33,718 nucleotides of DNA from a virus: positions 1 through 33,718 of the IMG/VR virus record IMGVR_UViG_3300021356_000080; one strand, given 5' to 3'. The notes under the pieces are model-generated. The model was not told the origin of the DNA. It saw only the letters and a program-made list of their open reading frames with translations, and ran no database searches. This document shows positions 1,902 to 28,622 of the stretch, piece by piece (the stretch's first letter is position 1; each line of letters opens with the position of its first letter). Position numbers and translations under genes: made by a program.

Positions 1902-2072
1902 GTGGCATATGGAAAAAAGAAAATGGCTAAAGGTGGATCACTGAAAACTGCGCCTAAAGGAAATAAAGGTTTATCTAAATTACCTAAAGGTGTACGTAAT
2001 AAAATGGGGTACATGGCTAAAGGTGGATCAGCAACTAAGAAATGTCCTACGTGTGGCATGAAAATGGCATAA
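1902..2072 (+). CDS. Small KGG-motif protein with C-terminal CxxC
   Basis: A 56-aa basic protein. I place the start at GTG 1902 because a Shine-Dalgarno GAGGAAG (1891-1897) lies just upstream. The longer reading from GTG 1866 runs inside the previous gene and has no ribosome site. The protein has two MAKGGS motifs and ends in CPTCGMKMA, half of a zinc-ribbon-like knuckle. A single CxxC could form a metal site by dimerising or by pairing with the Cys-bearing tail of the preceding gene product; this is speculation. No known function. Confidence 0.55.
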   Translation: MAYGKKKMAKGGSLKTAPKGNKGLSKLPKGVRNKMGYMAKGGSATKKCPTCGMKMA

Positions 2073-2073
2073 G

Positions 2074-2265
2074 ATGTGGATCGGGATTATACTGGCTTGT
2101 TCAGGCCCATCTGCATTAGCCTGTGAAGTTATGGTTAAGTCCGAACCGTTTTATACAGAAGAACAATGTGTTAAAGAAGGAACACAGTTAACAAAAAGTA
2201 TTTTAGCAAAAGGTATATATGCAAAACTTGCTTGTACTGAAGTCAATATAGGAAAGGTTACGTAA
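2074..2265 (+). CDS. Small exported Cys-containing protein
   Basis: A 63-aa protein with a hydrophobic N-terminus (MWIGIILACSGPSALACEV) resembling a short signal peptide or membrane anchor. A compact domain follows with two more Cys (EEQCVKEG and KLACTEVN). Four Cys in 63 residues suggest a disulphide-stabilised periplasmic or membrane-anchored peptide, though the N-terminus lacks the positive residues typical of bacterial signal peptides. It is packed tightly: the ATG is one base after the previous stop, and its TAA overlaps the next ATG (TAATG). Function unknown. Confidence 0.55.
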   Translation: MWIGIILACSGPSALACEVMVKSEPFYTEEQCVKEGTQLTKSILAKGIYAKLACTEVNIGKVT

Positions 2266-3740
2266 TGGCTTTACAAGATGAATTTAATAAGGGGCGTAGA
2301 TCAGTACGTCGATCCAGACCAAGTAGAGGTCGTAGATTTGTAGACCCAAGAACGCAACCAAGAATGGGAAGACAACCTCCTATGCAAAGACGTGTGCCTC
2401 CTCCCAATATGGTAGGAGTAGCAAGACCCAGACCTGTTGTTAATATGAATAATACATTAACAGCTCCATCTGCAAGATATACTGCGTTACAAAATCAATT
2501 TCAAGAAAAATTAAGAAATGACTCTTTGTATCAAGATTACCAAATGCAGATGCAAAATCTTAATCAACAACGTACTCAACAGATAAATCAATTACTTGTT
2601 AATGCAGGTCTTCCTCCTATGGGGCAAGAAACATCAAGTGAACAGCTTTCAGCACAAAGACGAATTATGATGCAGTACAATCAGTCTCCTCAAGCTGCTC
2701 AAATAGGAGAGCAGATGATGACTATGGGAAATCAACTAAAAACGTATGTAGACTCAACGTATGCTTCTGATATTGCTGAATTAAGAGAGATGCAACCTAG
2801 ACTAGGCAGACCTACTCAAGGTGTTGGTGGGATTCAAGCAACTCCATTAGGTTTACCTATTGGTGTACCTGTAAGTACCTCTCTAGGTAACTCTATGTTT
2901 AACCAAGATGCTAACTATGTTATTAAAGGTGACAAACTTTATAAAGATGGAAAGTGGATTGGTAGTCTCGGTGGCGGCATGATGGGTGGCGGCAGAGCAG
3001 GCCAAAATCAGATTGTAATGGGTAATGATGCAGTGGTAGATGTACCTGATTGGGTATTTGAAACTGCAGAAAGACAAGAACCTGATCCAGTTGTTGCGAC
3101 TCCATCTAAACCTGCACCTCCAAGTTATATGGAGCAAATAAAACTTGCATTGGAAAGACAAAATAAATCAGGTAGTAATACTTTAGCCCCAAGACCTAAG
3201 CCTGCTGTAAATCCAGGAATGGACACCACGAAAAAACCTCCAAGGAAAAAACCAACAGGAACACCTAAAGCACCTGTTAAAACGAAACCTGTAGGAGGAA
3301 CAAAGCCCAGACCTAAACCTATTAAAAGAGGTCAGGAGTCTACTGGTCCTGCAGTAAAAGGTGTTATGTCTCCAAAACCTGTACGTAAACGCCCAACAAG
3401 GTCTAACATAGACCCAAAAGATATAAAAACATTAGACCCAAGGATTAAAACAACTACACCTAAAAAACCTACAGGAAGAACTCCTTCTACTAGAGGTCCA
3501 AACAATAGACAAAGACCTAGTGTACGTCAAGGTTTATCAACACCAAGAACAAAACCACCAAGTACAAATTCTAAACAATTTAACCCTATGAATGATAGAA
3601 ATAAAAAATCTAATACTAAACCAAGAATGCCAATGGGAATGTATAAAGGTGGCATGGGAGTTAAAAGTAACTTTGGATCAAATGATTTTAGAACAACTGG
3701 AACTACAATAAGTGTAGTGGATAATAGGAAGAAAAAATGA
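2265..3740 (+). CDS. Proline/arginine-rich low-complexity protein, 491 aa
   Basis: A long low-complexity protein. Residues 1-60 are Arg/Pro-rich (RRSVRRSRPSRGRRFV). Residues about 60-165 are Gln/Asn-rich and probably helical (YQMQMQNLNQQRTQQINQLL). A Gly-rich short segment lies near 235-245 (LGGGMMGGGRAGQ). From about 275 to 450 the chain is Pro/Lys/Arg/Thr-rich and presumably disordered. The tail carries MYKGGMGVKSNFG, a version of the KGG motif seen in neighbours. Start ATG 2265 has GGAAAGG upstream (2251-2257) and overlaps the previous stop by one base. No enzyme motif is visible. A disordered virion or assembly protein is possible. Confidence 0.65.
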   Translation: MALQDEFNKGRRSVRRSRPSRGRRFVDPRTQPRMGRQPPMQRRVPPPNMVGVARPRPVVNMNNTLTAPSARYTALQNQFQEKLRNDSLYQDYQMQMQNLNQQRTQQINQLLVNAGLPPMGQETSSEQLSAQRRIMMQYNQSPQAAQIGEQMMTMGNQLKTYVDSTYASDIAELREMQPRLGRPTQGVGGIQATPLGLPIGVPVSTSLGNSMFNQDANYVIKGDKLYKDGKWIGSLGGGMMGGGRAGQNQIVMGNDAVVDVPDWVFETAERQEPDPVVATPSKPAPPSYMEQIKLALERQNKSGSNTLAPRPKPAVNPGMDTTKKPPRKKPTGTPKAPVKTKPVGGTKPRPKPIKRGQESTGPAVKGVMSPKPVRKRPTRSNIDPKDIKTLDPRIKTTTPKKPTGRTPSTRGPNNRQRPSVRQGLSTPRTKPPSTNSKQFNPMNDRNKKSNTKPRMPMGMYKGGMGVKSNFGSNDFRTTGTTISVVDNRKKK

Positions 3741-4066
3741 CACCAGAACAAATGAATGAAATTACAAAACTAGGATATATGGTTTTGGATAAAGGCAATG
3801 CAGTAATGGATATGAATACCAAAGAAATGGTACTTACTACAGATGCCGAAGGTAATCGTATTACAGACGTGGCTGAGATTAAAGGTATTCTAGGAATTGA
3901 CAAACCAAAGACTAAGAAAAAGAAAGCCGCAGCCAAAGAAAAAACAGAACTTGTAATGGAACGTGCTCGTGATGAGAACGGACATTTTATTGCAGACAAC
4001 CCAGACACAGAAGTAAATGAAGCATGGGTAGTTAAGACAGTTAAAAAAGTTTTAAAGAAAAAATAA
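3737..4066 (+). CDS. Hypothetical protein, 109 aa
   Basis: Starts at an ATGA overlap with the previous gene. The N-terminal half is a compact mixed domain (MTPEQMNEITKLGYMVLDKG). A Lys-rich linker follows (KPKTKKKKAAAKEK), then an acidic segment with HFIADNPDTEVNEAW, and a basic end (VKTVKKVLKKK). No family is recognised. The tight coupling to the neighbours on both sides puts it in the same operon; its role is unknown. Confidence 0.6.
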   Translation: MTPEQMNEITKLGYMVLDKGNAVMDMNTKEMVLTTDAEGNRITDVAEIKGILGIDKPKTKKKKAAAKEKTELVMERARDENGHFIADNPDTEVNEAWVVKTVKKVLKKK

Positions 4067-5569: not shown

Positions 5570-5898
5570 TGGTGGTTGACTTTGACATTGATGGTGATGG
5601 AGAAATCACCGAAGCTGAAGTAGCAATGAAAGAACGTATGCTTGAAATAGAGCTACGTGAAGAAAAAGCTGAGTCACAAAAGAAAATGGCGTGGGTGGCT
5701 ATGGCTATGATGATTATATTTACAGTATTTTTATTTACACCTATAATGTCAGACACAAGAGTTAATGCCCTTGCAGATTTGCTTGGGCTATTCTATATTG
5801 CACAAACAGGTATTGTAGCTGCGTATATGGGTGCTACAGCTTATATGGCAGGAAAGCCAATGGGAAATAAAGTTGCTATGAAAAAGGATATGAGATAA
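5569..5898 (+). CDS. EF-hand, two-TM membrane protein (holin candidate)
   Basis: A 109-aa protein. Residues 6-17, DIDGDGEITEAE, match a canonical 12-residue EF-hand calcium loop (D1, D3, D5, G6, I8, E12). A charged helix follows (about 18-40), then two transmembrane helices at about 40-60 (WVAMAMMIIFTVFLFTPIM) and 66-92, then a short basic tail. The start is GTG 5569 (or GTG 5572), next to a strong CGGAGGG (5558-5564). It directly precedes the endolysin and spanin-like genes. That context, the small size and the two helices make a holin plausible; the EF-hand suggests Ca2+ or Mg2+ sensing or simply a stable acidic loop. The holin role is inference. Confidence 0.7.
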   Translation: MVVDFDIDGDGEITEAEVAMKERMLEIELREEKAESQKKMAWVAMAMMIIFTVFLFTPIMSDTRVNALADLLGLFYIAQTGIVAAYMGATAYMAGKPMGNKVAMKKDMR

Positions 5899-6368
5899 TG
5901 GGATTTAGTTTAAGTAATCGTTCTTTAGATAAATTAGAAGGTGTACATCCTGATTTGGTGGGAGTTGTTAAAAGAGCCATAGAAGTAACAGATGTTGATT
6001 TTGGAGTAACATATGGGGTTAGGACTCTTCAAGAACAAGAAGAGCTATATAACTCTGGTCGATCACAGACTATGAAAAGTAAACACCTTATACAAGAAGA
6101 TGGATATTCACATGCTGTAGACCTTGTAGCTTATTTTGGTTCAGATGTTTCTTGGGAATTAAATGTCTATGATAACATTTGTGATGCTATGGCTATAGCT
6201 GCAGAAGAACTAGAAGTTCCAATTAAGTGGGGTGCAGCATGGTCTGAAGGAGACATTCGTTTTTATGAAGACACTGCAGAAGATGCAATGAATGCTTACA
6301 TAGACTTACGAAGATCACAAGGACGTAGACCGTTTTTAGATGGGCCACATTTTGAAATGATGGTCTAA
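5898..6368 (+). CDS. Endolysin, M15-type L,D-carboxy/endopeptidase
   Basis: A 156-aa protein, a typical length for phage M15 peptidases that cleave peptidoglycan stem peptides. The start overlaps the previous stop (TAATG). Motifs: a YGVRTLQEQEELYNSGRSQT segment (residues 39-58), typical of the family's first helix; SKH (61-63) and SHAVDLVAY (71-79), the SxH..AxD region; and DGPHFE (148-153). Likely zinc ligands are H63, D75 and H151, with H72 a possible alternative to H63. The stretch between S61 and the AVD is longer than in the standard SxHxxGxAxD motif. No signal peptide is seen, so a holin would be needed, consistent with the preceding membrane protein. Confidence 0.88.
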   Translation: MGFSLSNRSLDKLEGVHPDLVGVVKRAIEVTDVDFGVTYGVRTLQEQEELYNSGRSQTMKSKHLIQEDGYSHAVDLVAYFGSDVSWELNVYDNICDAMAIAAEELEVPIKWGAAWSEGDIRFYEDTAEDAMNAYIDLRRSQGRRPFLDGPHFEMMV

Positions 6369-16552: not shown

Positions 16553-17281
16553 ATGGCTACTACATATATAACGTTAGTTAACAATACATTACGAAGATTA
16601 AATGAAGTTACCTTAGATGTTGCAGGTAATGGATTTGATACGGTTAGAAATGTTCAAGCTTTAGTAAAGGATGCTGTTAATAATAGTATTCGTCTTATTT
16701 TACAGGACGGTCAAGAGTGGCCTTTTTTAAAAACAACGTATACTCAAACTTTAGTTACAGGACAACGTACTTATGATTTTCCAACAAACATGGGTACAGT
16801 TGATTGGGATTCGTTTTTTCTAAAAAAGACTACAGGATTAGACAATACTCCTAGACCTTTACGTACTTTAACTTATAATGATTATATACATAATTATCGT
16901 ACACAAGATGATGAAGGCGATCAAACAAATGGCATAGGTAAACCTTTATACGTATATCAAACATACGAAGAAAAATTTGGGGTTACTCCGTTAACAGATA
17001 ATGTATATGATATAGAATATATTTATTTTACTTATCCAGATGAGCTTGTTAATTATGATGATACTTGTGCTATTCCTTCTCGTTTTGATCATGTTATTGT
17101 TGATGGTGCTATAATGTTTATTATGAGATTTAGGAGCAATGAACAAAGTGCTGCTATACACCAACAAAATTTTGAAGAAGGAATTAAATCTATGAGGCGA
17201 CTTTTGTTGGACGATAATCTTTATTTACGTTCAACTGTTTTACAACGTCCGTCAAATAGTACTTTTAATAGTGTGATTTAA
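16553..17281 (+). CDS. Tail adaptor (tail tubular A / gp4-like)
   Basis: A 242-aa protein. It starts with a helical MATTYITLVNNTLRRLNEVT, then ALVKDAVNNSIRLILQDGQE followed by WPFLKTTYTQTLVTGQRTYD and a FP turn. This helix pair plus WPF/beta pattern is typical of podovirus head-to-tail adaptors (T7 gp11/P22 gp4 type; recollection). It ends in a helix bundle (FEEGIKSMRRLLLDDNLYLR). It would bind the portal ring and carry the nozzle. The gene opens the tail block after the hairpin and its stop shares one base with the next ATG. Confidence 0.75.
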   Translation: MATTYITLVNNTLRRLNEVTLDVAGNGFDTVRNVQALVKDAVNNSIRLILQDGQEWPFLKTTYTQTLVTGQRTYDFPTNMGTVDWDSFFLKKTTGLDNTPRPLRTLTYNDYIHNYRTQDDEGDQTNGIGKPLYVYQTYEEKFGVTPLTDNVYDIEYIYFTYPDELVNYDDTCAIPSRFDHVIVDGAIMFIMRFRSNEQSAAIHQQNFEEGIKSMRRLLLDDNLYLRSTVLQRPSNSTFNSVI

Positions 17282-18825
17282 TGCCCGATAATTTAGGTTC
17301 CTTTAAAGTATTTTGTCAGGGTGGACTAAACACTAGTAGAGATGTGCTATCTCAAGGTGAAACAAGTCCTGGTTCTGCTATTAGTTTAATTAACTATGAA
17401 CCATCAGTTACTGGTGGTTATAGACGTATAAGTGGTTTTAGCAATGACTATGGTACAGTTGGAGGCACAGGAAATGTTTTAGGAGTCTGTGTTGCTAACG
17501 GTGTTAATGATGGTATTTTAGCATGTCGTGAGCCTACTAGTGGCAATAACTATTTACATTACTGGAATACTACCACAGAAGCTTGGGTTGCTGTAACTAC
17601 TTCTGGATCGCCTACAATGACAGGTGTAACTAAAGTTAGATTTAATAAATATAACTGGGGTACACCTAAAGTAATTATGACAGATGGTGTAAATCCTGCA
17701 TCTACATACGATGGAACTACTTATACACAAATAACTGACTCTAATGCTCCTACTGCTCCAAAATATGCAACAGCACATTCTGAACATATGTGGTTAGCAG
17801 GAGATTCTACATACCCTACTTATCTTTATTTTAGTGCTCCTAATGATGAAGAAGACTATGGTGACACTGCGGATTTAGGTTCTGGTTTTTTTAATATGGG
17901 GTTTGAGGTAGTAGCAATAAAACCTTTTAGAGACACACTATATGTATTTGGAACAAATAATATAAGTAAAATAGTAGGTTCAGATAGGTCAGATTTTGGT
18001 GTAGTAAAAATTACAGATAATCTAGGTTGTATGGCTACTGATAGTGTTATTGAAATTGGTGGAGACTTATTGTTTTTATCTCAAGACGGTTTACGTCCCA
18101 TTAGTGCAACAGACAGAATTGGTGATGTAAACTTAGAAACTGTGTCTAAAGATATTCAATCTATATTTACAGATATTGTTTTTGATACAGACCTTAATGG
18201 TTTAAATGCCGTTGTAGTTAGGCAGAAAAGCCAATTTAGATATATGTTTGGTGGTGTAGATACTCAAGGTATTATTGGTGGGTATCGTGAGACACCGAAT
18301 GGATTACAGTTTGAGTATGGTCAACTTTTAGGTATTACATCTACTTGTGCAGACAGTGGTTATATAGGACAGTATGAATATGTAATACACGGAAGCACAG
18401 ATGGAAAAGTTCACAGACAAGAACAAGGTAATGACTTTGATGGGGAAAATATATTTAGTTTATTTCAAACTCCATTCTATCACATGCAAGACCCAGAACA
18501 AAGAAAGATATTTTATAGTGTAGCTACATATTTACGTTCTGAGGGAGATAACTCAATAGTTATGTCAGTTGTGTATGACTATGAAGATTTTGCTACATTA
18601 AATCCTTCTGACTTTAATTTAGACACAGAAGGTGCTGCTGCCTACTACAATGAGGCAATATATAATAGTACAGCAATATATGATGGAAACCCATCACCCG
18701 TACAAAGAACAAATATTTCTGGATCAGGAAAATCAGCAGCAATAAGATATGTTACTAATAGTGCCGATGCATCACATAGTGTTCAAGGTCTAGTGATTAC
18801 TTTCGGAACAGGAGACAGGTTATAA
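17281..18825 (+). CDS. Tail nozzle / DNA stabilisation protein
   Basis: A 514-aa largely beta protein. The N-terminus (SFKVFCQGGLNTSRDVLSQG) and the early GGYRRISGFSNDYG segment match the start of podovirus tail-hub/nozzle proteins. Propeller-like repeats follow, such as YLYFSAPNDEEDYGDTADLG, then MGFEVVAIKPFRDTLYVFGT, then DLLFLSQDGLRPISATDRIG. These resemble P22 gp10/T7 gp12-type proteins, which close the tail and retain packaged DNA. Coupling to the adaptor gene (TAATG) supports the role. The exact homologue type is uncertain. Confidence 0.7.
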   Translation: MPDNLGSFKVFCQGGLNTSRDVLSQGETSPGSAISLINYEPSVTGGYRRISGFSNDYGTVGGTGNVLGVCVANGVNDGILACREPTSGNNYLHYWNTTTEAWVAVTTSGSPTMTGVTKVRFNKYNWGTPKVIMTDGVNPASTYDGTTYTQITDSNAPTAPKYATAHSEHMWLAGDSTYPTYLYFSAPNDEEDYGDTADLGSGFFNMGFEVVAIKPFRDTLYVFGTNNISKIVGSDRSDFGVVKITDNLGCMATDSVIEIGGDLLFLSQDGLRPISATDRIGDVNLETVSKDIQSIFTDIVFDTDLNGLNAVVVRQKSQFRYMFGGVDTQGIIGGYRETPNGLQFEYGQLLGITSTCADSGYIGQYEYVIHGSTDGKVHRQEQGNDFDGENIFSLFQTPFYHMQDPEQRKIFYSVATYLRSEGDNSIVMSVVYDYEDFATLNPSDFNLDTEGAAAYYNEAIYNSTAIYDGNPSPVQRTNISGSGKSAAIRYVTNSADASHSVQGLVITFGTGDRL

Positions 18826-18826
18826 A

Positions 18827-21800
18827 ATGGCAGGTTATACAAGACAAAGTGTAGGCACAATTATCGCCAATGCGGTAGTTAAAGCAGGGCCACTTAACGC
18901 AGAGTTTGATCAAATTTTAGCTGCATTTAATCAAGCTACAGGACATGCTCACGATGGAGCTACTGCAGAAGGTGCATACGTACCATTAATTTCTGACACA
19001 AGTGCTTTTAATAAAGTAGTTATTGATGAAGCCAATAACAGAATTAGTTTTTACAATGATGTGTCTAGTGCCGCAGTAGAACAACTTAGATTAGAAGACG
19101 GAGTACTTAAACCTGTAACAGATAACGACATAGACCTTGGTGCTTCAGGTCTTGAGTTTAAAGATTTATATGTAGATGGTGTAGGTTATATTGATACTGT
19201 TGAAATTCACGAGAATGCTACAATTACAGGTGATGTTAGTGTTGGTGGTAATTTAACTGTTGATGGTAATGTTACATTAGGTAGTGATGATACGGATACT
19301 ATTTCTGTTAATGCAGATTTTATTACTGATCTTATCCCTAACAATTCATCAAATCAAAATTTAGGTACTGCCGTTAAACAATGGAATAATTTGTATATTG
19401 AAGGGACAGCTAGTATTGACACTGGAACTTTTGGTACTTCTGATAATCTTACTATTACAAACACCGATATTAGCAGTGCTGCAAATGGTCTTGCAATAAC
19501 AGCAGTAGGCGCAACGGCAGACATTGAATTAGATGCAGGTCGTGAAATAATTATAAATGCTGACAACGGATCAATACAATTACAAGGTGGTAATACTGAT
19601 TTTGCTCAACTTGCTAAAACTAGTGGGGAACTTACTATTAGGAGTGGAGCTTCTAACACTACAGCAGTAGCATTTACAGGAGCTAATGCAGACTTTGCAG
19701 GTACGGTAGATGTTACAGGTAATACTACATTAGATGCAAACTTAACTGTTGATGGTAACACTGTTTTAAATGGCAACACTACTTTAGGTGATGCAGCTAC
19801 AGATACTGTTACTATAAATGCTGACGTTGCTTCTTCTATTATTCCTTCTGCTGATAATACTTATCATCTTGGTTCTTTAGGTTCTGAGTGGGCTGATTTA
19901 TATATTGATGGTACTGGATACATTGATACAGGTATATTTGGTGATAACGGATATATGACTCTTACAGATAATGAGATTGATGTATCTTCTGGTGGTCTTA
20001 CTATTGATGTGACAGGTGATCTTACACTAGACTCTACCACTACAATGAACATAAATACTAGTTCAAGTTTAAATATTGATGCTGCAGGTATGATAGACGT
20101 AAGTGCAGGTACTTACATTGATTTAGATACTGTTAACGGTTTATTTGTACTTAGAAAAAATGGTATTACTTATGCCCAACTACAGGAAAATAGTGGTAAT
20201 CTACAAATAGCATCGTTAGGAGTTCCTGCTGTAAACTTCAACAGTGCTAATGCTGATTTTTTAGGTACACTAGATGTTACAGGTGTAACTACACTAGACA
20301 GTAACCTATCTGTCGGTGGTAATGCTACGATTACTGGAAACCTTACAGTAAACGGTACAACTACTACAGTAAACAGTACTATTGTAACTATTGACGATCC
20401 TATCTTTACTATAGGTGGAGACACAGCCCCTGCATCAGATGACAATAAAGATCGTGGTATTGAATTTAATTGGCATGATGGTTCTACAGCAAAAGTAGGT
20501 TTCTTTGGTTTTGATGATTCCGAAGGTAAATTTACATTCATTCCTGATGCAACAAATACTTCTGAAGTGTTTAGTGGTACATCTGGGACTATTGTAGCTG
20601 ACCTTGAAGGTAATGTTACTGGAGACTTAGACGGTAATATAGTACCTACAAGTGGCTCGTCTGAAGCTGCTAGTATAGTTCCTGGTGTTGACAGCACCTA
20701 TACATTAGGTACTGATGCAAAACGTTGGCTAGATGTATTTGCAGATGAAATACATGCAGGTTCTAACATTCAGTTTGAAGGTGCTACTGAAGATGCCTTT
20801 GAAACAACTCTAACTGTTACAGACCCAACTGCTGACAGAACTGTAACTATTCCAGATGCAGATGGTACAGTTGCACTAGCTAACTCTACAGAGCACCCAA
20901 CCTTTACAAACGGTGCAGATATTGGAAATAACGAGTTTCTAACTTTTGGTGGCGAAACATCGGGTTCTTCTCTGGGCGGTAGTTATCCTGCAATTAGTGC
21001 TTTAAGTAATATTAGTGACAGAAGTAGTGATTCTTTGTTTTTCTACATTGATGGCTCTAACAGGGTAAACATCAATCAAAATGAACTATATCTTGCAACA
21101 GGTATGGATATTGTTTTTGAGGGTGATACCTCAGATGCAAATGAAACAAGACTTGTTGTAGAAGACCCTACTGCAGATAGAACAATTACTTTACCTGATC
21201 TTGATGGCACTGTACCTTTAATTGACAGCAGTGGTCACTTAATTGTTGAAAATGCTGATCCAGAGTTACACTTAATTTCTACTGATGCAAATGAAAGCAA
21301 GCTAGAAATTAGACAAACTTCAATTAATGATTTTTGGAATATATCTGTTGATAGAGGAAACTCTACAAATAGTTCTATTTTAACTTTTTCAGTAGACAGT
21401 GTTACAACTTCTTCTATGGACACAAGTGGTATAACAATATATAATGATCTAAATATAGAAGGTACTGATAGTTTAAATGATCCTGCAAGTTTAACTATAA
21501 CATCTGGTTTGTCAGACTCAACTTTAACAGTAACTTCAGGTACAGGCGAAGCTAAGTTAACAGTTTCATCTGCTGATCCTAAAATAGGTATTGGTACAAC
21601 TTCTCCTGCTGTTTCTTTAGATATTGCTACAACTGATGCAATTCAAGTTCCTGACGGTACAACAGCACAACGTCCTGCTTCACCTGCAAGTGGTATGTTC
21701 CGTTACAATACAGATGAAAATGGTTTTGAAGGTTATGCAAATGGTGTATGGCAACCTTTAACTGATAAGAAACAAACTGCAAATACTACCTCCACTACTC

Positions 21801-22072
21801 AAACTGCAATTGCAACTTACGCATATGCAAGTTATGTTGGTGGAGAATTTTTAATTACTGCAGACGATGGAACAGAACGTACTATTACTAAACTACTTGT
21901 AGTGCATGATGGTACAACTGCTGTTGCTACACAGTTTGGTGAAGTAAATACAGATGCTGCTCTTGCTACATTTGATGTAGACATTAGTGGTTCTGACTTT
22001 AGAATACTTGCAACTGCAGCAAGTGCTTCTTCTACAGATTATACAGTAATTGCAACTTTAACAGACGCATAA
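18827..22072 (+). CDS. Repeat-rich tail fibre protein, 1081 aa
   Basis: N-terminus (about 1-90): GYTRQSVGTIIANAVVKAGP with FNQATGHAHDG, a virion-anchoring domain common in marine phage fibres. The shaft is built from repeats with LGxxxxxWxDLYxDGxxYIDT cores at about 102, 178, 347 and 626. Beta-helix-like stretches are rich in TxDxNLTVDGN. A conserved block at about 507-600 includes TVNSTIVTIDDPIFTIGGDT and KVGFFGFDDSEGKFTFIPDA. Two copies of FEGxTxDAxET...DPTADRT (about 650 and 763) follow. Near 952-975, SGMFRYNTDENGFEGYANG is the usual motif before the tip, followed by a C-terminal domain of about 100 residues. It adsorbs to the host surface, presumably as a trimer. Confidence 0.88.
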   Translation: MAGYTRQSVGTIIANAVVKAGPLNAEFDQILAAFNQATGHAHDGATAEGAYVPLISDTSAFNKVVIDEANNRISFYNDVSSAAVEQLRLEDGVLKPVTDNDIDLGASGLEFKDLYVDGVGYIDTVEIHENATITGDVSVGGNLTVDGNVTLGSDDTDTISVNADFITDLIPNNSSNQNLGTAVKQWNNLYIEGTASIDTGTFGTSDNLTITNTDISSAANGLAITAVGATADIELDAGREIIINADNGSIQLQGGNTDFAQLAKTSGELTIRSGASNTTAVAFTGANADFAGTVDVTGNTTLDANLTVDGNTVLNGNTTLGDAATDTVTINADVASSIIPSADNTYHLGSLGSEWADLYIDGTGYIDTGIFGDNGYMTLTDNEIDVSSGGLTIDVTGDLTLDSTTTMNINTSSSLNIDAAGMIDVSAGTYIDLDTVNGLFVLRKNGITYAQLQENSGNLQIASLGVPAVNFNSANADFLGTLDVTGVTTLDSNLSVGGNATITGNLTVNGTTTTVNSTIVTIDDPIFTIGGDTAPASDDNKDRGIEFNWHDGSTAKVGFFGFDDSEGKFTFIPDATNTSEVFSGTSGTIVADLEGNVTGDLDGNIVPTSGSSEAASIVPGVDSTYTLGTDAKRWLDVFADEIHAGSNIQFEGATEDAFETTLTVTDPTADRTVTIPDADGTVALANSTEHPTFTNGADIGNNEFLTFGGETSGSSLGGSYPAISALSNISDRSSDSLFFYIDGSNRVNINQNELYLATGMDIVFEGDTSDANETRLVVEDPTADRTITLPDLDGTVPLIDSSGHLIVENADPELHLISTDANESKLEIRQTSINDFWNISVDRGNSTNSSILTFSVDSVTTSSMDTSGITIYNDLNIEGTDSLNDPASLTITSGLSDSTLTVTSGTGEAKLTVSSADPKIGIGTTSPAVSLDIATTDAIQVPDGTTAQRPASPASGMFRYNTDENGFEGYANGVWQPLTDKKQTANTTSTTQTAIATYAYASYVGGEFLITADDGTERTITKLLVVHDGTTAVATQFGEVNTDAALATFDVDISGSDFRILATAASASSTDYTVIATLTDA

Positions 22073-22080
22073 GGTGACTC

Positions 22081-23274
22081 GTGGCTAATAATAGAACATT
22101 TACAGCTAACAATGGTTTATCTAACGTAGACTCAATTTCTGAAATTGTTGGTGGTTTTGGGCCAAATGGAACTGATGTATTAAATCTTAGTGCAGTTCAA
22201 GATATTGGTCTTGTTTTAAATGAGTCTACAGGTAGTAACTTTTTTGCAGGTGCTATTCATTTAAACGATAATGGAACTAAATTATATGTACGTCAAGGAG
22301 CATTTGGTGACACGATAAGAAGATATGATTTATCTACTGCATATGATATATCTACATATTCGTTTGTAGAAAGTTTTGATCATTCGAGTATTTCTACTTC
22401 TAATTATGGGGCTACTACTAGCAGAGATGGTACAAAGTTTTATATTGTTGATACACCAACCCCTAAAAAAATAAGACAGGTAACTTTAAACACCCCATAT
22501 ACATTTAGTTCTGTCACAAATAATGGAGACTATTTTGATTTAAGTTCTTATACTCAAATTGGTACTGTTTACGATATAAGGTTTGATCCAGACGGAGATT
22601 TATTACATCTTATAGATAATAGTAACAGTAAAATGCATCAATTTTCGTTAGGTACTTCTTGGGATTTAACTGGTACAATGACCTATGACGGTTCTGCATC
22701 ATTAAATTCAAGCTCATACTACGGTTTTCATCTTAGTACAGATGGTACTAAATTATACACTATTAATTCTAGTAGAAATATAGAAGAGTATGATGTTTCT
22801 CCTGCATATGATTTATCAAGCTCTTCTAATGTTACTTATACAGGTCAAAGTCATAATACAATTAATATGGGTGGATTATCCCCAAGAGGAATAAATTTAA
22901 ATATGGACTATACTGGTGGTACAGGAGATACTATTTATGTAGGAAACTATACTACTAACGTACAAATTGCTGCAGCATCTATAGGTGAGGGAGAATACAA
23001 AACTTTTGATCTATCTTCTGGTTCAACTTTTATTGTAGAAAACTCACAAAACAATAGTTATAGATTTTCAAATCCACCTACATCTGGTCGTGGTGGTTTA
23101 TATACTATAATTATAAAAGGCTCTAGCTATTCTACTACACTAAGTGGTGTTCAATGGCCTTCTGGTACAGCACCAACATTTAGTACTGCAGGGGCATACG
23201 ACATTGTTTCTGTTACAACTTCAGATGGTGGTGCTACATACCAAGCTGTTCTTTCTATGGAGGAATGTAAGTAA
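22081..23274 (+). CDS. Beta-propeller protein 1, single propeller
   Basis: A 397-aa protein. The start is GTG 22081 after AAGGTGA (22071-22077). The N-terminus MANNRTFTANNGLSN is shared with the next two genes. From about 55 to 300 there are repeated blades with a DGTKLY strand and a closing YDLSTAYDIST strand. Then comes a terminal beta-module (about 308-397): FDLSSGSTF, FSNPPTSGRGG, QWPSGTAPTF and SDGGATYQAV. The blade repeat is recalled from marine phage structural proteins. It follows the fibre gene and is probably a virion-surface or receptor-binding protein; no enzyme motif is seen. Confidence 0.75.
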   Translation: MANNRTFTANNGLSNVDSISEIVGGFGPNGTDVLNLSAVQDIGLVLNESTGSNFFAGAIHLNDNGTKLYVRQGAFGDTIRRYDLSTAYDISTYSFVESFDHSSISTSNYGATTSRDGTKFYIVDTPTPKKIRQVTLNTPYTFSSVTNNGDYFDLSSYTQIGTVYDIRFDPDGDLLHLIDNSNSKMHQFSLGTSWDLTGTMTYDGSASLNSSSYYGFHLSTDGTKLYTINSSRNIEEYDVSPAYDLSSSSNVTYTGQSHNTINMGGLSPRGINLNMDYTGGTGDTIYVGNYTTNVQIAAASIGEGEYKTFDLSSGSTFIVENSQNNSYRFSNPPTSGRGGLYTIIIKGSSYSTTLSGVQWPSGTAPTFSTAGAYDIVSVTTSDGGATYQAVLSMEECK

Positions 23275-25331
23275 TGGCTAATAATGCACCATTTAAGCCT
23301 AATAGCAGTTTAGAAATAAACGGACCTATAGAGTTTTTTAAAGGAACAGTTACAGAAAGCAATACAACTTTTGATATAACTAAAGATTTTATTTTTAAAG
23401 CTCAAAAAAGTATTATGGAAGAAACAAATGCTTTTGATATAACTGGTGCAGGTAGTGCATTAGATATATTTTTTAAACCTGATGGTACTGCTTTTTTTAT
23501 TATTAGTTATGATGATATAAAAAAATGGGATTTAAGTACAGCTTGGGATATTTCTACTGCTACATACAATCACTCAGAAAGTATATCTGGTATTGGTACT
23601 AGTACTAATTATAGATGTTTAACTTTTAGTCCTGATGGATTAAGATTATTTATAATAGAAAATTCGGGAAGTTCAACTAAACAAATACACGAATTTACTC
23701 TATCTGTTGCTTGGGATTTGGGTTCTACAGTTACTGATACAGGAGATATATTAAGTGTCCCAAACACAAATGGCTCTGGCCTTACTTCAAAAAGTATAAA
23801 TTTTAATGATGATGGTAGTAAGTTATTTGTTTATCCTGATAGACTAGCACCTAATTCAGATAGAATATATTCTTTTAATCTTACAACAAACTACAGTCTT
23901 AGTACATCAGCAGGTGCCATTACTTCAAATATAGAAATAAATAATGCAACTAGTTACATTCTTCCTATAGCAGGAAATTTTCGTTTTAATAGTGATGGTA
24001 CAAAACTTTTCATTTCACACACTAGTAGTGCTAGTCAAGTTGCTCAAATAAAAAGTTTTGATTTAAGTACGCCATATGATATAGCAGGTGCAGGAATAGA
24101 ATCAGGAGCTTCTCCTGCTGTGCCTGATCAATCACTTATATATACCACTATAGGGTATCAAACCTTTCCGCATTCGTTCTTTTTTAAAGATGATGGTAAA
24201 AAAATATACTTTTTAAATTATGGAAGTGTTGCTGAATATGATATAGGTGGAAAACAAATTAACTTAGACTTATCTACTGGAAACTATTTTGAAGTAAATT
24301 TAGACGCAGATTCAGATTTAATTTTTGATAATGCTAGATATGTAGATTTATTTTCTGTAAAAGTAAATGGGGTTTCCACTGAAGGTCATGGTACAGTACC
24401 TGGTAATTTTAGTACATCTTCTAATCTAAACTCTCTTATAAGTTTTGGTACTCCTTGGGGTATGGATTTGGTAGATAATGGTACTAAACTGTATCTATAT
24501 GATTTTGCTGATGAACAAGTAAAATATATTTCACTTAGTACTCCTTATGATGTAAGTTCTGGTTCATTTAGTTATCAAAGTTTTACCAGTGTAACTGGAA
24601 GTGGTACTTCTAATTTTAGGTCTTTGACAGTAAGAGATAGTGGCACTAAAATGCATTTGACTACAGGAACAACTGTACACCAATGGACTTTAAACACTGC
24701 TTATAGTTTAGGCAGCACTACTTACAATGGCAGTATTACTCCAACTGGAGGCGATGCAGGTTGGAATATTTTTTGGAACAATGATGGTACAAGATTGTAT
24801 TCTTCTTCTTCAACTGGTACAATACTACAAATGGATTTAAGTACGGCTTATGATATTACTAGTACTGTAACAGATAATGGTACAAGCCCTACTATACCCA
24901 GTAAAATATTGTATGGTATGGATTTAGATGAAACAGGAACTTATTTTTACTATGTTGAAAGTAGCAACTCAAATCAAATAATTTATAGAGCTACTCTATC
25001 TACTCCTTATGACATTACTACTTTAGATTGGAATACTGAGGTTGAAATAGATTTAACTACATTAACAAATCCTTCTATGCCATCTTCAAGTAACAAAACT
25101 GCTGTTAGGATTGTAGATGAAGGAAGAAAAGTAGCTATGCTTGATAACAGCTATGATGTTGTTAGAGTTTTTACTCTACTACAAACTCCATATATTACAC
25201 TTTCCCCTAACGTAGATGTTTTAGGGACACAGACTTCTGTAATAAACGAATCATCTGCACGTTATACATTTAGTACAAAGAACAACGGCACTAAATTTAT
25301 TGGTGCACAAACAGGGACAGACTTTTCATAA
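23274..25331 (+). CDS. Beta-propeller protein 2, double propeller
   Basis: A 685-aa paralogue of its neighbours, starting MANNAPFKPNSSLEI at a TAATG overlap. Blades with DGTKLF and FDLSTPYDI closing strands span about 55-325. At about 330-370 comes the first part of the terminal beta-module (INLDLSTGNYFEVNLDADSD, then LIFDN). A second propeller follows from about 385 to 640, then a short C-terminus (YTFSTKNNGTKFIGAQTG) that resembles the module's last strand. The order suggests a propeller inserted within the module. It is the most AT-rich of the group by eye. It is likely a surface-exposed adhesin. Confidence 0.75.
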   Translation: MANNAPFKPNSSLEINGPIEFFKGTVTESNTTFDITKDFIFKAQKSIMEETNAFDITGAGSALDIFFKPDGTAFFIISYDDIKKWDLSTAWDISTATYNHSESISGIGTSTNYRCLTFSPDGLRLFIIENSGSSTKQIHEFTLSVAWDLGSTVTDTGDILSVPNTNGSGLTSKSINFNDDGSKLFVYPDRLAPNSDRIYSFNLTTNYSLSTSAGAITSNIEINNATSYILPIAGNFRFNSDGTKLFISHTSSASQVAQIKSFDLSTPYDIAGAGIESGASPAVPDQSLIYTTIGYQTFPHSFFFKDDGKKIYFLNYGSVAEYDIGGKQINLDLSTGNYFEVNLDADSDLIFDNARYVDLFSVKVNGVSTEGHGTVPGNFSTSSNLNSLISFGTPWGMDLVDNGTKLYLYDFADEQVKYISLSTPYDVSSGSFSYQSFTSVTGSGTSNFRSLTVRDSGTKMHLTTGTTVHQWTLNTAYSLGSTTYNGSITPTGGDAGWNIFWNNDGTRLYSSSSTGTILQMDLSTAYDITSTVTDNGTSPTIPSKILYGMDLDETGTYFYYVESSNSNQIIYRATLSTPYDITTLDWNTEVEIDLTTLTNPSMPSSSNKTAVRIVDEGRKVAMLDNSYDVVRVFTLLQTPYITLSPNVDVLGTQTSVINESSARYTFSTKNNGTKFIGAQTGTDFS

Positions 25332-27490
25332 TGGCAAATAACCAAGCATTTAAATTAAACTCTGGATTGGCTGTAACTTCTGTCTTTGAGATTGCCACAC
25401 CAGTTACAGAAGAATCTTATGTTTTTAATGGCCCTTGGCCTACCCTTACAGATACTACGTCATTTACTATACCTTCTGCATATGTAGGTGCAAGTGGTAA
25501 CAAAGGTTTATTTTTTAAACCTGATGGGCTACAGATGTATTTTATATCTAATGATTTATTTGGTGGTGAAGCATTTATTTATCAGTTTACTTTGTCTACG
25601 GCTTGGGATGTTACAACTGCTTCCTATACAGCAGTATCAGGAGATAACATAGATAGTGGAAACTATCTAGGAGAAACAGAGGGATTAAAGTTTAGTCCTG
25701 ATGGAACTAAAGCATATGTCTTTTCGTACATATCTCAGTTAATGGTCCAGTACCCTCTTACTACGCCTTGGGACATTTCTACACTGTCTAACTCTACTAG
25801 AGTAGAAATTAATTGGCCTACAGTTGTAGGTGCAGGATTTAATGTGCAAGGCGGTAAATTTAATGATGGTGGTAAACGACTAATACTTTCTCATACCAGT
25901 GTACCGACAAGCTCTCCAGACTTCTATGAAATAACTTTAAGTGAGCCATACAATATAGCTACAGCAGCTTACTATAGTATAACTTATGACTATGCAGGTG
26001 CAAATAATAATGCAGGTCCGTGGACCGATTTTGCTTTTAATAGTACAGGAACTATTGCAGTAGGTGTAAATAGTACAAAAACATCTGATTTTAGTTTTCT
26101 TAGAACTGATCCTAATTCACCTTGGGATTTAAGTACACTAACACAGAATCCACCTTCAGGTGGTAGTTGGTCCCCAAGATTTAACATAACAGGTATAGCT
26201 AATCCTGAAGGAATATTTATACATCCAGATAATACAAAAGTGTTTGTAATAGATGGTACTTCAGATAAAATACATGAGTTAGCAACTAACACAAGTACAA
26301 GTACTTGGGACACAGACTTTAGAAATTATAAGTTAGACCTATCCCAAGGTAATTATTTTACAAAACTTCTTACTAATAATACTCGTCTAGAGTTTGATAA
26401 CCCTCCACCTGACGGACAGATTGGAAGTTTTATTATGGAAATTACTGGCAATAGTGAGGGTTATGATTTAAGCAATTTTACTTTTGAAGAAACTTTTCCA
26501 CGATTGCTGCAACTAAATAATCCTACTAGTTTAAGAGATATTTATGTTAGCCCTGACGGACACTATCTTTATTATATGGATTCGGGTTTAAATCGAATAA
26601 ATTCTAGGTATCTAGAAACTGCTTTTGATTTTGGTTCGTATAATAGTAGATTTGATAAAGCTAAAAGTTTAACTACAGAAGATAGTTCAATGAGAGCTTT
26701 TACTTTTAAACCTGATGGCACTCAATTTTTTATTGCAGGGATAGCTAATGACAGTGTTTATGTATATGATTTAAGTACTCCTTGGGATTTAAACACTGCA
26801 GTGTATGATAGTAGTAAAACTTTTTCGTATAATCCAACCCTTAATGGCGATATAACATCACTAAAGTTTAAGTATGATGGTACTAAAATGTACTTGCTTG
26901 ATGTAACTGGATTTTCAAACGACAAACTTGTAGAGTTTGATCTTAGTACTGCTTGGAATCCTTCTACTGCATCAGCTAGTGGAAATACATTTAATTTAGA
27001 TAGCCCTACGCAGGTATCTAGATATTTACAAAATGGTACGTTTTCACCAGATGGCAGTGAATATTTTGTAATGGAAGGCTACCCCAATAATACTTCACCA
27101 AGTAACTTACACACAATTCATAAATTTACTTTGAGTACTCCTTGGGATGTATCTACAATGTCTTGGGATTCAGAAGTTGGTGGAGGGTCAGGAGGTTTAG
27201 GTTTTTATATTTCTGGCTTAGACGAACCTCACAATTTTATCATTAAACCAGACGGTAAAAAAATCTTTGTTTTTGGTTTTGTGTCAACTGATTCTACTAG
27301 TAATCATTCTTTTACTATAGAGCCATCTTCTACCCCAGACGATTTTTATATATCGTGGCCTGACAATATTAGATGGAACAAAGGTCTTGTACCTGAAACA
27401 CCTGCTACAGGTGAAACAGATCAGTATGCGTTTATTACTACAGATGGTGGTAAAACATATTATGGAAAAGTGCTTGGAGATAACATATGA
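25331..27490 (+). CDS. Beta-propeller protein 3, double propeller
   Basis: A 719-aa paralogue starting MANNQAFKLNSGLAV, again at a TAATG overlap. The first propeller (about 55-320) has FSPDGTKAYVFSY and LSTAWDVTT strands. The split module's first half lies at about 327-378 (YKLDLSQGNYFTKLLTNNTR and FDNPPPDGQIG). The second propeller is at about 390-665 (FKPDGTQFF, YDLSTPWDLNT). The module's second half is at about 668-719: SWPDNIRWNKGLVPETPATG and FITTDGGKTYYGK. This C-terminus is a recurring marine phage fibre end. It overlaps the next gene by ATGA. Confidence 0.75.
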   Translation: MANNQAFKLNSGLAVTSVFEIATPVTEESYVFNGPWPTLTDTTSFTIPSAYVGASGNKGLFFKPDGLQMYFISNDLFGGEAFIYQFTLSTAWDVTTASYTAVSGDNIDSGNYLGETEGLKFSPDGTKAYVFSYISQLMVQYPLTTPWDISTLSNSTRVEINWPTVVGAGFNVQGGKFNDGGKRLILSHTSVPTSSPDFYEITLSEPYNIATAAYYSITYDYAGANNNAGPWTDFAFNSTGTIAVGVNSTKTSDFSFLRTDPNSPWDLSTLTQNPPSGGSWSPRFNITGIANPEGIFIHPDNTKVFVIDGTSDKIHELATNTSTSTWDTDFRNYKLDLSQGNYFTKLLTNNTRLEFDNPPPDGQIGSFIMEITGNSEGYDLSNFTFEETFPRLLQLNNPTSLRDIYVSPDGHYLYYMDSGLNRINSRYLETAFDFGSYNSRFDKAKSLTTEDSSMRAFTFKPDGTQFFIAGIANDSVYVYDLSTPWDLNTAVYDSSKTFSYNPTLNGDITSLKFKYDGTKMYLLDVTGFSNDKLVEFDLSTAWNPSTASASGNTFNLDSPTQVSRYLQNGTFSPDGSEYFVMEGYPNNTSPSNLHTIHKFTLSTPWDVSTMSWDSEVGGGSGGLGFYISGLDEPHNFIIKPDGKKIFVFGFVSTDSTSNHSFTIEPSSTPDDFYISWPDNIRWNKGLVPETPATGETDQYAFITTDGGKTYYGKVLGDNI

Positions 27491-28152
27491 GTACTTCAGG
27501 ATTAATAGCTGCAGCAGCAGCATATAGCAATTACGGACCTTATAGCACTACAATTTCTTTTCATAGTCACACTGTTGACTCTGGTAATATGGACATTACT
27601 GTACCTAGTACTATTGAAGAAGGTGATTTAGCTATAGCATACTCAACAACTGCTACTGGCCCTTCTCCTACTCTTTACTCTGGGTTTACTCAAATAGCCA
27701 GTTTAAATTCTGTTTTTGAAGATATGTTTCAGTATAAGGTTCTTAATGGTACAGAGGGAAATACAACTCTTACCAGAACTGGTGATAGCTATGATGCTGC
27801 AAGTATGATTGTTTTTCGATCAAGTAAGGGTGCAAACACAGTTTGGAGTTTAGACCAAAATAACACAAGTATTGTGCAAACTACTAGTACTCCTTCTACA
27901 GTAAACTTAACCCTTCCTACAGTAGCTCCCACTATCATATTTGCAAACTATTCTGCTTACAATACAGCACCTGCAATTAATGGAACGTTTTGGGATAACG
28001 ACTTCTTAAACAGTGGTGAAAACAATAACAGAATACGTTTCTATTATGAAATACAAAATACAGAAGCTGATCTAGCTGCTAGAAGTATAATAGCATCGGG
28101 TGATTACGGAAGTTATAACAGGTTATCTCATGCAGTATTCAGTGCCGCATAG
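27487..28152 (+). CDS. Beta-rich virion surface protein, 221 aa
   Basis: Starts at an ATGA overlap with the third propeller gene. The N-terminal MSTSGLIAAAAAYSNYG is Ala/Gly/Ser-rich. The rest is predicted beta sandwich with Thr/Ser/Asn-rich strands (DITVPSTIEEGDLAIAYSTT, ASMIVFRSSKGANTVW, YYEIQNTEADLAARSIIASG). I recall similar short proteins among fibre genes in marine phages. The position after three adhesin-like genes suggests a tail-tip or adhesin component. No named domain can be assigned. Confidence 0.6.
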   Translation: MSTSGLIAAAAAYSNYGPYSTTISFHSHTVDSGNMDITVPSTIEEGDLAIAYSTTATGPSPTLYSGFTQIASLNSVFEDMFQYKVLNGTEGNTTLTRTGDSYDAASMIVFRSSKGANTVWSLDQNNTSIVQTTSTPSTVNLTLPTVAPTIIFANYSAYNTAPAINGTFWDNDFLNSGENNNRIRFYYEIQNTEADLAARSIIASGDYGSYNRLSHAVFSAA

Positions 28153-28169: not shown

Positions 28170-28622
28170 ATGTACGTTAACACAATTAAAAATATATACC
28201 CTTATACAGAAAATAATTTTAGAGAAGACAATAAAAGAACTTCTTTTCCTAAAGTTATTACTAATACTTTGTATGCTAAATATGGTGTATTTCCAGTTAC
28301 TGATGGAACTCAACCAGAGTTTGATAAGACAACTCAAAAGGTTGTGGCAGACGATATGCCAACACAAAATGATTCGGGTGATTGGGTACTAGGTTATTCT
28401 GTTGTAGACATGACTCAAGAAGAAATAGATGATCATAATTTATTTATTGCAGAAGCTAATAGAAATAAACGTACTCAGTTATTATTAGATACAGATTATC
28501 TTGCATTATCTGATAACACATTAACAGATGCTATGTCTTTATACAGACAGAAACTAAGAGATATTACAACTAAGGCAAATTGGCCTCATCTTTCTGATGA
28601 TGATTGGCCTATTAAGCCTTGA
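28170..28622 (+). CDS. Tail fibre assembly chaperone-like protein
   Basis: A 150-aa protein, ATG 28170 with AAAGGAAAA upstream. The N-terminal half resembles the Tfa-like pattern (NTLYAKYGVFPVTDGTQPEF, then WVLGYSVVDMTQEEI). The C-terminal half reads RTQLLLDTDYLALSDNTLTD, then YRQKLRDITTKANWPHLSDD and ends DWPIKP, a motif typical of phage fibre-assembly/tail chaperone proteins. These proteins help fibres trimerise or cap their tips. The location immediately downstream of the fibre/adhesin genes strengthens the call. Whether it serves the fibre or the propeller proteins cannot be told. Confidence 0.78.
   Translation: MYVNTIKNIYPYTENNFREDNKRTSFPKVITNTLYAKYGVFPVTDGTQPEFDKTTQKVVADDMPTQNDSGDWVLGYSVVDMTQEEIDDHNLFIAEANRNKRTQLLLDTDYLALSDNTLTDAMSLYRQKLRDITTKANWPHLSDDDWPIKP

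Follow-up and report, generated by a model that had tools for sequence, protein, structure and literature searches.

Three adjacent genes in a 33,718-nucleotide viral sequence (the window; IMG/VR record IMGVR_UViG_3300021356_000080, from an uncultured virus) raise the question of how one tail-fibre-like module can be closed in the first gene and parted by an entire second β-propeller in the next two. With large terminase (TerL) identities of 90% to Roseobacter phage CRP-1 and 81% to Puniceispirillum phage HMO-2011, the window belongs among the HMO-2011-like marine phages; its hosts are probably marine Gram-negative bacteria.

The three genes (g1, g2 and g3) lie between a long fibre-like gene and a gene for a tail-fibre-assembly-like protein (Table 1). 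In its N-terminal part, the fibre-like protein resembles CRP-1 gp43, which is annotated as a ‘putative tail fiber’. An open reading frame that overlaps the end of g3 is 83% identical in a sister phage (contig IMGVR_UViG_3300031841_000749) and has no match in Pfam or PHROG. At the locus syntenic with g1–g3, CRP-1 carries between gp43 and its assembly-like gene gp40 both gp42, in which the module is present intact (E=2e-7), and gp41 (L136 11141-13066), with two DUF7483 domains. HMO-2011 has a row of small putative fibre proteins at the corresponding stretch. Because these contents differ, we regard the locus as variable among related phages. Elsewhere in the window, the top PHROG match (5107) of the product of 17281-18825 is labelled amidase, a label that is probably misleading, as the location of the gene and its remaining hits point to a structural protein of the virion or tail. 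A 156-amino-acid (aa) open reading frame at 5898-6368 looks by eye like an M15-type peptidase endolysin.

Table 1. Features of the g1–g3 locus in window coordinates, with residue ranges of the encoded proteins
Feature	Coordinates	Strand	Identity in sister phage (aa)	Remarks
Long fibre-like protein, 1081 aa, directly upstream of g1	18827..22072	+		N-terminal ~150 aa 52% identical to CRP-1 gp43
g1, 397 aa: one five-bladed propeller, intact terminal module, slot empty	22081..23274	+		GTG start
g1 propeller, aa ~51-304	22231..22992	+		AF2; blade HMM
g1 intact terminal module, aa 305-397	22993..23271	+		Adjoining half-HMM matches; AF2 strands
g2, 685 aa: propeller 1, module N half, inserted propeller, degenerate C half	23274..25331	+		
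g2 first propeller, aa ~46-331	23409..24266	+	44%	Replaced relative to sister phage
g2 module N half, aa ~332-375	24267..24398	+	91%	
g2 inserted propeller, aa ~376-640	24399..25193	+	80%	Blade HMM
g2 degenerate module C half, aa ~641-685	25194..25328	+	86%	Alignment with g3 and sister phage
g3, 719 aa: propeller 1, module N half, inserted propeller, module C half	25331..27490	+		
g3 first propeller, aa ~46-334	25466..26332	+	91%	
g3 module N half, aa 335-374	26333..26452	+	93%	Half-HMM
g3 inserted five-bladed propeller, aa ~381-663	26471..27319	+	34%	Replaced relative to sister phage
g3 module C half, aa 673-719	27347..27487	+	89%	Half-HMM
221-aa open reading frame, 3′ of g3	27487-28152			4-base overlap with the end of g3
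Tail-fibre-assembly-like protein, 150 aa, end of cluster	28170..28622	+		phrog_4998, 8716, 4912; 33% identical to CRP-1 gp40

The three genes are tandem paralogues, as the earlier note had read them: their products begin MANNRTF, MANNAPF and MANNQAF, and pairwise alignments give E-values from 5e-21 to 1e-49. The terminal module (approximately 96 aa) is a common phage tail-fibre module, with matches to phrog_7760, 19200, 3904 and 9017 and the consensus ...DLSTGNVFSLTLTENTTFTFSNPPASGTAYGFTLELTQGGAYTVTWPSSVKWAGGTAPTL...DVFVFVTSDGGTTWYG. The motifs xLxTGNxF, NPPxxG, YTITWPxxxxW and DGGTTYYG near the C terminus characterize it; by HMM, it is contiguous in g1 and split in g3. Intact members of these PHROG families that we examined carry no insert, in contrast to g2 and g3, although by sequence the frame of all three proteins belongs to the same module.

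To locate the split we used HMMs of the two module halves, trained on intact modules of propeller-free proteins only and divided at position 45/46. In g1, the halves match side by side (N half, aa 305-347, E=1e-16; C half, aa 348-397, E=3e-17), and AF2 predicts a small β-fold there (pLDDT 64-81) after a single five-bladed propeller (pLDDT mostly 60-93 up to aa ~260 and 50-58 in the last blade), which bears out the reading of an intact module behind one propeller. On this model, the slot position falls in a hairpin loop (aa 347-352). In g3, the same HMMs match 298 aa apart (aa 335-374, E=2.5e-8; aa 673-719, E=3e-16) and the AF2 strands form two propellers (aa 39-336 and 383-663); the g1 module thus aligns with both g3 pieces, not with one only. 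In g2, the N half is matched at aa 329-353 (E=6e-4), and the C-half HMM finds no complete C half (E=11); this half is recognizable only through alignment to g3 and to the sister phage. Its high identity in the sister despite degeneracy by HMM shows that it is maintained, and its degeneracy means that the module of g2 may be incomplete. The split that the earlier note described in both genes is therefore clear in g3 and, in g2, evident for the N half with a degenerate counterpart.

The propellers have five four-stranded blades and close as a ring, according to the AF2 models of g1 and g3 and to a blade HMM, which gives five matches in g1, about five per propeller in g3 and ten in g2, the last of these a fragment only. 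Profile searches of PDB sequences with the module or with the split proteins gave no credible match. In fold searches, g3 propeller 1 aligned best, of the PDB entries listed, with the receptor-binding protein (RBP) gp45 of Staphylococcus phage phi11 (5efv; Z 16.5, rmsd 3.9, 244 residues aligned). Matches to LRP6, megalin and WD40 proteins were rejected as kin, as they reflect generic propeller similarity.

Propellers are also common enzyme folds, and the inserted ones could serve as spacers in the structure or as depolymerase- or lactonase-like enzymes instead of binding a receptor. A GH43 glycoside hydrolase is among the PDB neighbours and the propellers have weak Lactonase/SGL matches in Pfam, but for g3 these scores lie under the curated cut-offs, and the exchange pattern described below fits host recognition better, as does the tail-fibre context. 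We consider a spacer or enzyme role unlikely; an enzyme acting on host glycans would, moreover, still be a host-specificity domain.

To place the split module of the window in a wider sample, we collected 214 proteins with both module halves from scans of viral contigs, a set in which proportions depend on how the loci were gathered and do not amount to a census. The junction between the halves is closed (0-6 aa) in 144 of the 214 and filled in the other 70, always at the same point, across 44 loci that include the window; no junction among the 214 measures between 6 and 257 aa. The fillings fall into three classes. The first is one five-bladed propeller of 257-298 aa (approximately five blades by the blade HMM). 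The second is about 522 aa long with approximately ten blades (L067, L069, L070 and L112), probably two five-bladed propellers in tandem. The third is DUF7483 (313-330 aa), which Pfam identified in nine of nine tested proteins and in a tenth (L064), and which is unrelated to the propeller filling. The insertion that the earlier note called unusual is not unique to these genes: the slot recurs and also takes two propellers or DUF7483. In L112, an empty (1611-1982) and a double-filled (1979-3904) copy of the module gene adjoin in one phage.

Related arrangements occur in other phages. In the cultured Lentibacter phage ICBM2, CDS 51 (L043 3276-4487) includes a propeller of this family, flanked by weak half-module matches (E=1e-5 and 0.0025); its product looks like a filled-slot protein, and the gene that follows encodes a tail assembly chaperone. 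Limnohabitans phage DC31 was considered as a further filled slot and rejected, as its module is intact and a propeller-like gene lies separately downstream. CRP-1 and DC31 have the parts in trans, an intact module gene being followed by a DUF7483 gene in the former and a propeller-like gene in the latter. A search of the literature library gave no paper on DUF7483; its presence in the slot, together with the two-DUF7483 protein of CRP-1 at the syntenic locus, suggests a role in recognition for this uncharacterized domain.

Low model confidence leaves room for another reading of the split, in which a short linker behind propeller 1 and a short tail at the C terminus each fold on their own and resemble a single module in appearance only. 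The structure prediction proposed by the earlier note, run on g3 with a 17-row alignment, gave pLDDT of only ~32-54 for both module pieces, and a single reconstituted fold is therefore something that we infer rather than see in the model. Against separate elements, HMMs trained on unrelated, uninterrupted modules recognize the two pieces in the expected order, the pieces are directly joined in empty alleles of the same gene, and the halves diverge together across approximately 265 intervening residues: in 55 filled proteins, Mantel r is 0.82 between the N and C halves, compared with 0.15 between N half and insert and 0.32 between C half and insert, at similar median identities (N half, 0.42; insert, 0.44). 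Although co-inheritance alone is no proof, it suggests that the N and C halves fold together, and we consider independent elements highly improbable. The reading that we prefer is that of one module interrupted at a fixed point.

Pairs of closely related alleles, with and without an insert, allow the interruption to be followed in DNA. An empty allele with a closed module (L148:2640-3791) and an allele with a propeller in the slot (L156:1725-3647) share 99% of nucleotides in the first propeller and 95% in the C half of the module. The filled allele in turn has a first propeller that is 100% identical in nucleotides to that of a third (L153:1689-3671), and the slot propellers of these two share only 39% aa identity. 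A second gene family includes an empty member of 118 aa (L061:6801-7157), propeller-filled members (L063, L065, L076 and L111) and a DUF7483-filled member (L064). Between its empty and filled alleles, DNA identity ends at ...gaggttactggt, the end of the N half, and restarts at acaatcacatggcct, the start of the C half. Inserts have passed from one gene family to another, too: those of L157:1731 and L142:3647 are 89% identical in nucleotides, within frames that share 34% (N half) and 57% (C half) aa identity.

The same kind of replacement separates the window from its sister phage. Over g1–g4, nucleotide identity is approximately 70-95%, except in two blocks where it falls to about 50%. One block (about 23383-24230) is the first propeller of g2, and the other (about 26480-27300) is the inserted propeller of g3. 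Along g3, identity is about 90%, including the first propeller, drops to about 50% (aa ~382-657) and returns to 83-86%; protein identities follow the same course (Table 1). The low identity of a replaced insert could, taken alone, reflect rapid sequence change, a reading that the propellers beside it speak against: g2 and g3 each keep one propeller and have one replaced, which is not expected of a uniformly fast-evolving domain. Metagenomic contigs can be mis-assembled in hypervariable loci, yet the pattern recurs in 44 loci.

The earlier note had also proposed a history of duplication, and here the data point elsewhere. Among the five window propellers, pairwise identity is 22-32%, with pairs within a protein no closer than pairs between proteins. 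A propeller tree with weak support (60 of 110 inner branches left open), which was hence used for near-identical pairs only and not for deep history, shows no recent duplication; what the data show is exchange. That the slot is real but its inserts are internal duplicates of propeller 1, diverging rapidly under diversifying selection without exchange, is highly improbable. Membership of all propellers in a single family and the tandem paralogy of the window genes agree with it, but it would not account for sharp DNA boundaries, an unrelated DUF7483 filling within one gene family, identical first propellers that accompany dissimilar inserts or none, near-identical inserts in unrelated frames, or the distances among the window propellers. 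The domain-in-domain insertion itself, by contrast, stands on the fixed split point in 70 proteins, the empty and filled alleles, the replacement relative to the sister phage and the co-divergence of the halves.

We therefore consider it very probable that g1–g3 are receptor-binding-type tail-tip proteins in which a permissive loop of the module holds whole recognition domains that are exchanged between phages and genes. The loop, at position ~45 of the module, has the strand ...FxLEVTG before it and the strand YTITWPxS after it, and a complete recognition domain could enter there with the frame left intact; a five-bladed propeller occupies the slot in g2 and g3, and in g1 it is empty. A propeller suits insertion into a hairpin loop, since its two ends meet where the ring closes. 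Exchange of slot content between phages and genes would most likely proceed by recombination within the conserved halves of the module or next to them, as the mosaic of conserved and replaced segments suggests, and would enable the phage to change its recognition target while the structural frame is kept. The inserts are putative binders of host-surface glycans or proteins. We infer receptor binding from the gene context, including the fibre-assembly-like gene downstream, from the module families, which are annotated as tail fibre, and from the phi11 RBP fold match; the receptor-binding setting suggested by the earlier note thus gains support from the neighbouring genes and this fold, with binding itself putative.

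Related phages have the slot empty or filled with other domains, which gives it the look of a natural socket for the exchange of recognition domains. Whether the module is a general plug-in socket across marine phages, with a loop that takes and exchanges whole recognition domains of unrelated folds, DUF7483 included, halves that act as homology arms and tandem sockets that are refilled from other phages and from genes of the same genome, is in our estimate an even bet. Receptor-binding proteins vary too much to be recognized, which is why the host-deciding parts of uncultured marine phages are for the most part unknown. Here the frame is conserved and the slot fixed, so that the variable domain is marked directly, and the two together provide a sequence handle for finding host-recognition domains. 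Sharing of the slot suggests equivalent roles for DUF7483 and the propeller family of the window, and the natural empty and filled alleles make domain exchange testable.

Several known systems resemble parts of this arrangement. CRP-1, the nearest isolate by TerL, likewise has an intact-module fibre protein followed by a second binding-type protein (gp42 and gp41), but there the second is a separate gene of two DUF7483 domains and not a propeller inside the module. The RBP of phi11, a host-recognition protein, shares the five-bladed propeller fold with g3 propeller 1 at a sequence identity of 8%. It is described as having a putative GlcNAc site, the proposed ligand being the GlcNAc of wall teichoic acid, and its propeller follows a helical stem and precedes tower domains; in the parts of that account consulted, it is not described as inserted in another module (PMC4901313). 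The closest known parallel, by analogy, is the ‘evolved Dit’ (Dit being the distal tail protein) of lactococcal phages (PMC10688798). The proteins of g1–g3 are not members of that family, as frame, inserts and probable hosts differ: its frame is Dit and its insert a BppA-type CBM, compared with a tail-fibre C-terminal module and propellers or DUF7483 here. In lactococcal skunaviruses, Dit carries one or two inserted carbohydrate-binding domains that vary between phages, and phages with classical Dit regained infectivity on hosts bearing exopolysaccharide once they were given the inserted version (PMC10688798). Like evolved Dit, g2 and g3 have an insert in a conserved tail protein, the N- and C-terminal parts of which align with an insert-free version, as the empty and filled alleles reveal; and in both systems one or two domains can be inserted, and the inserts differ between phages.
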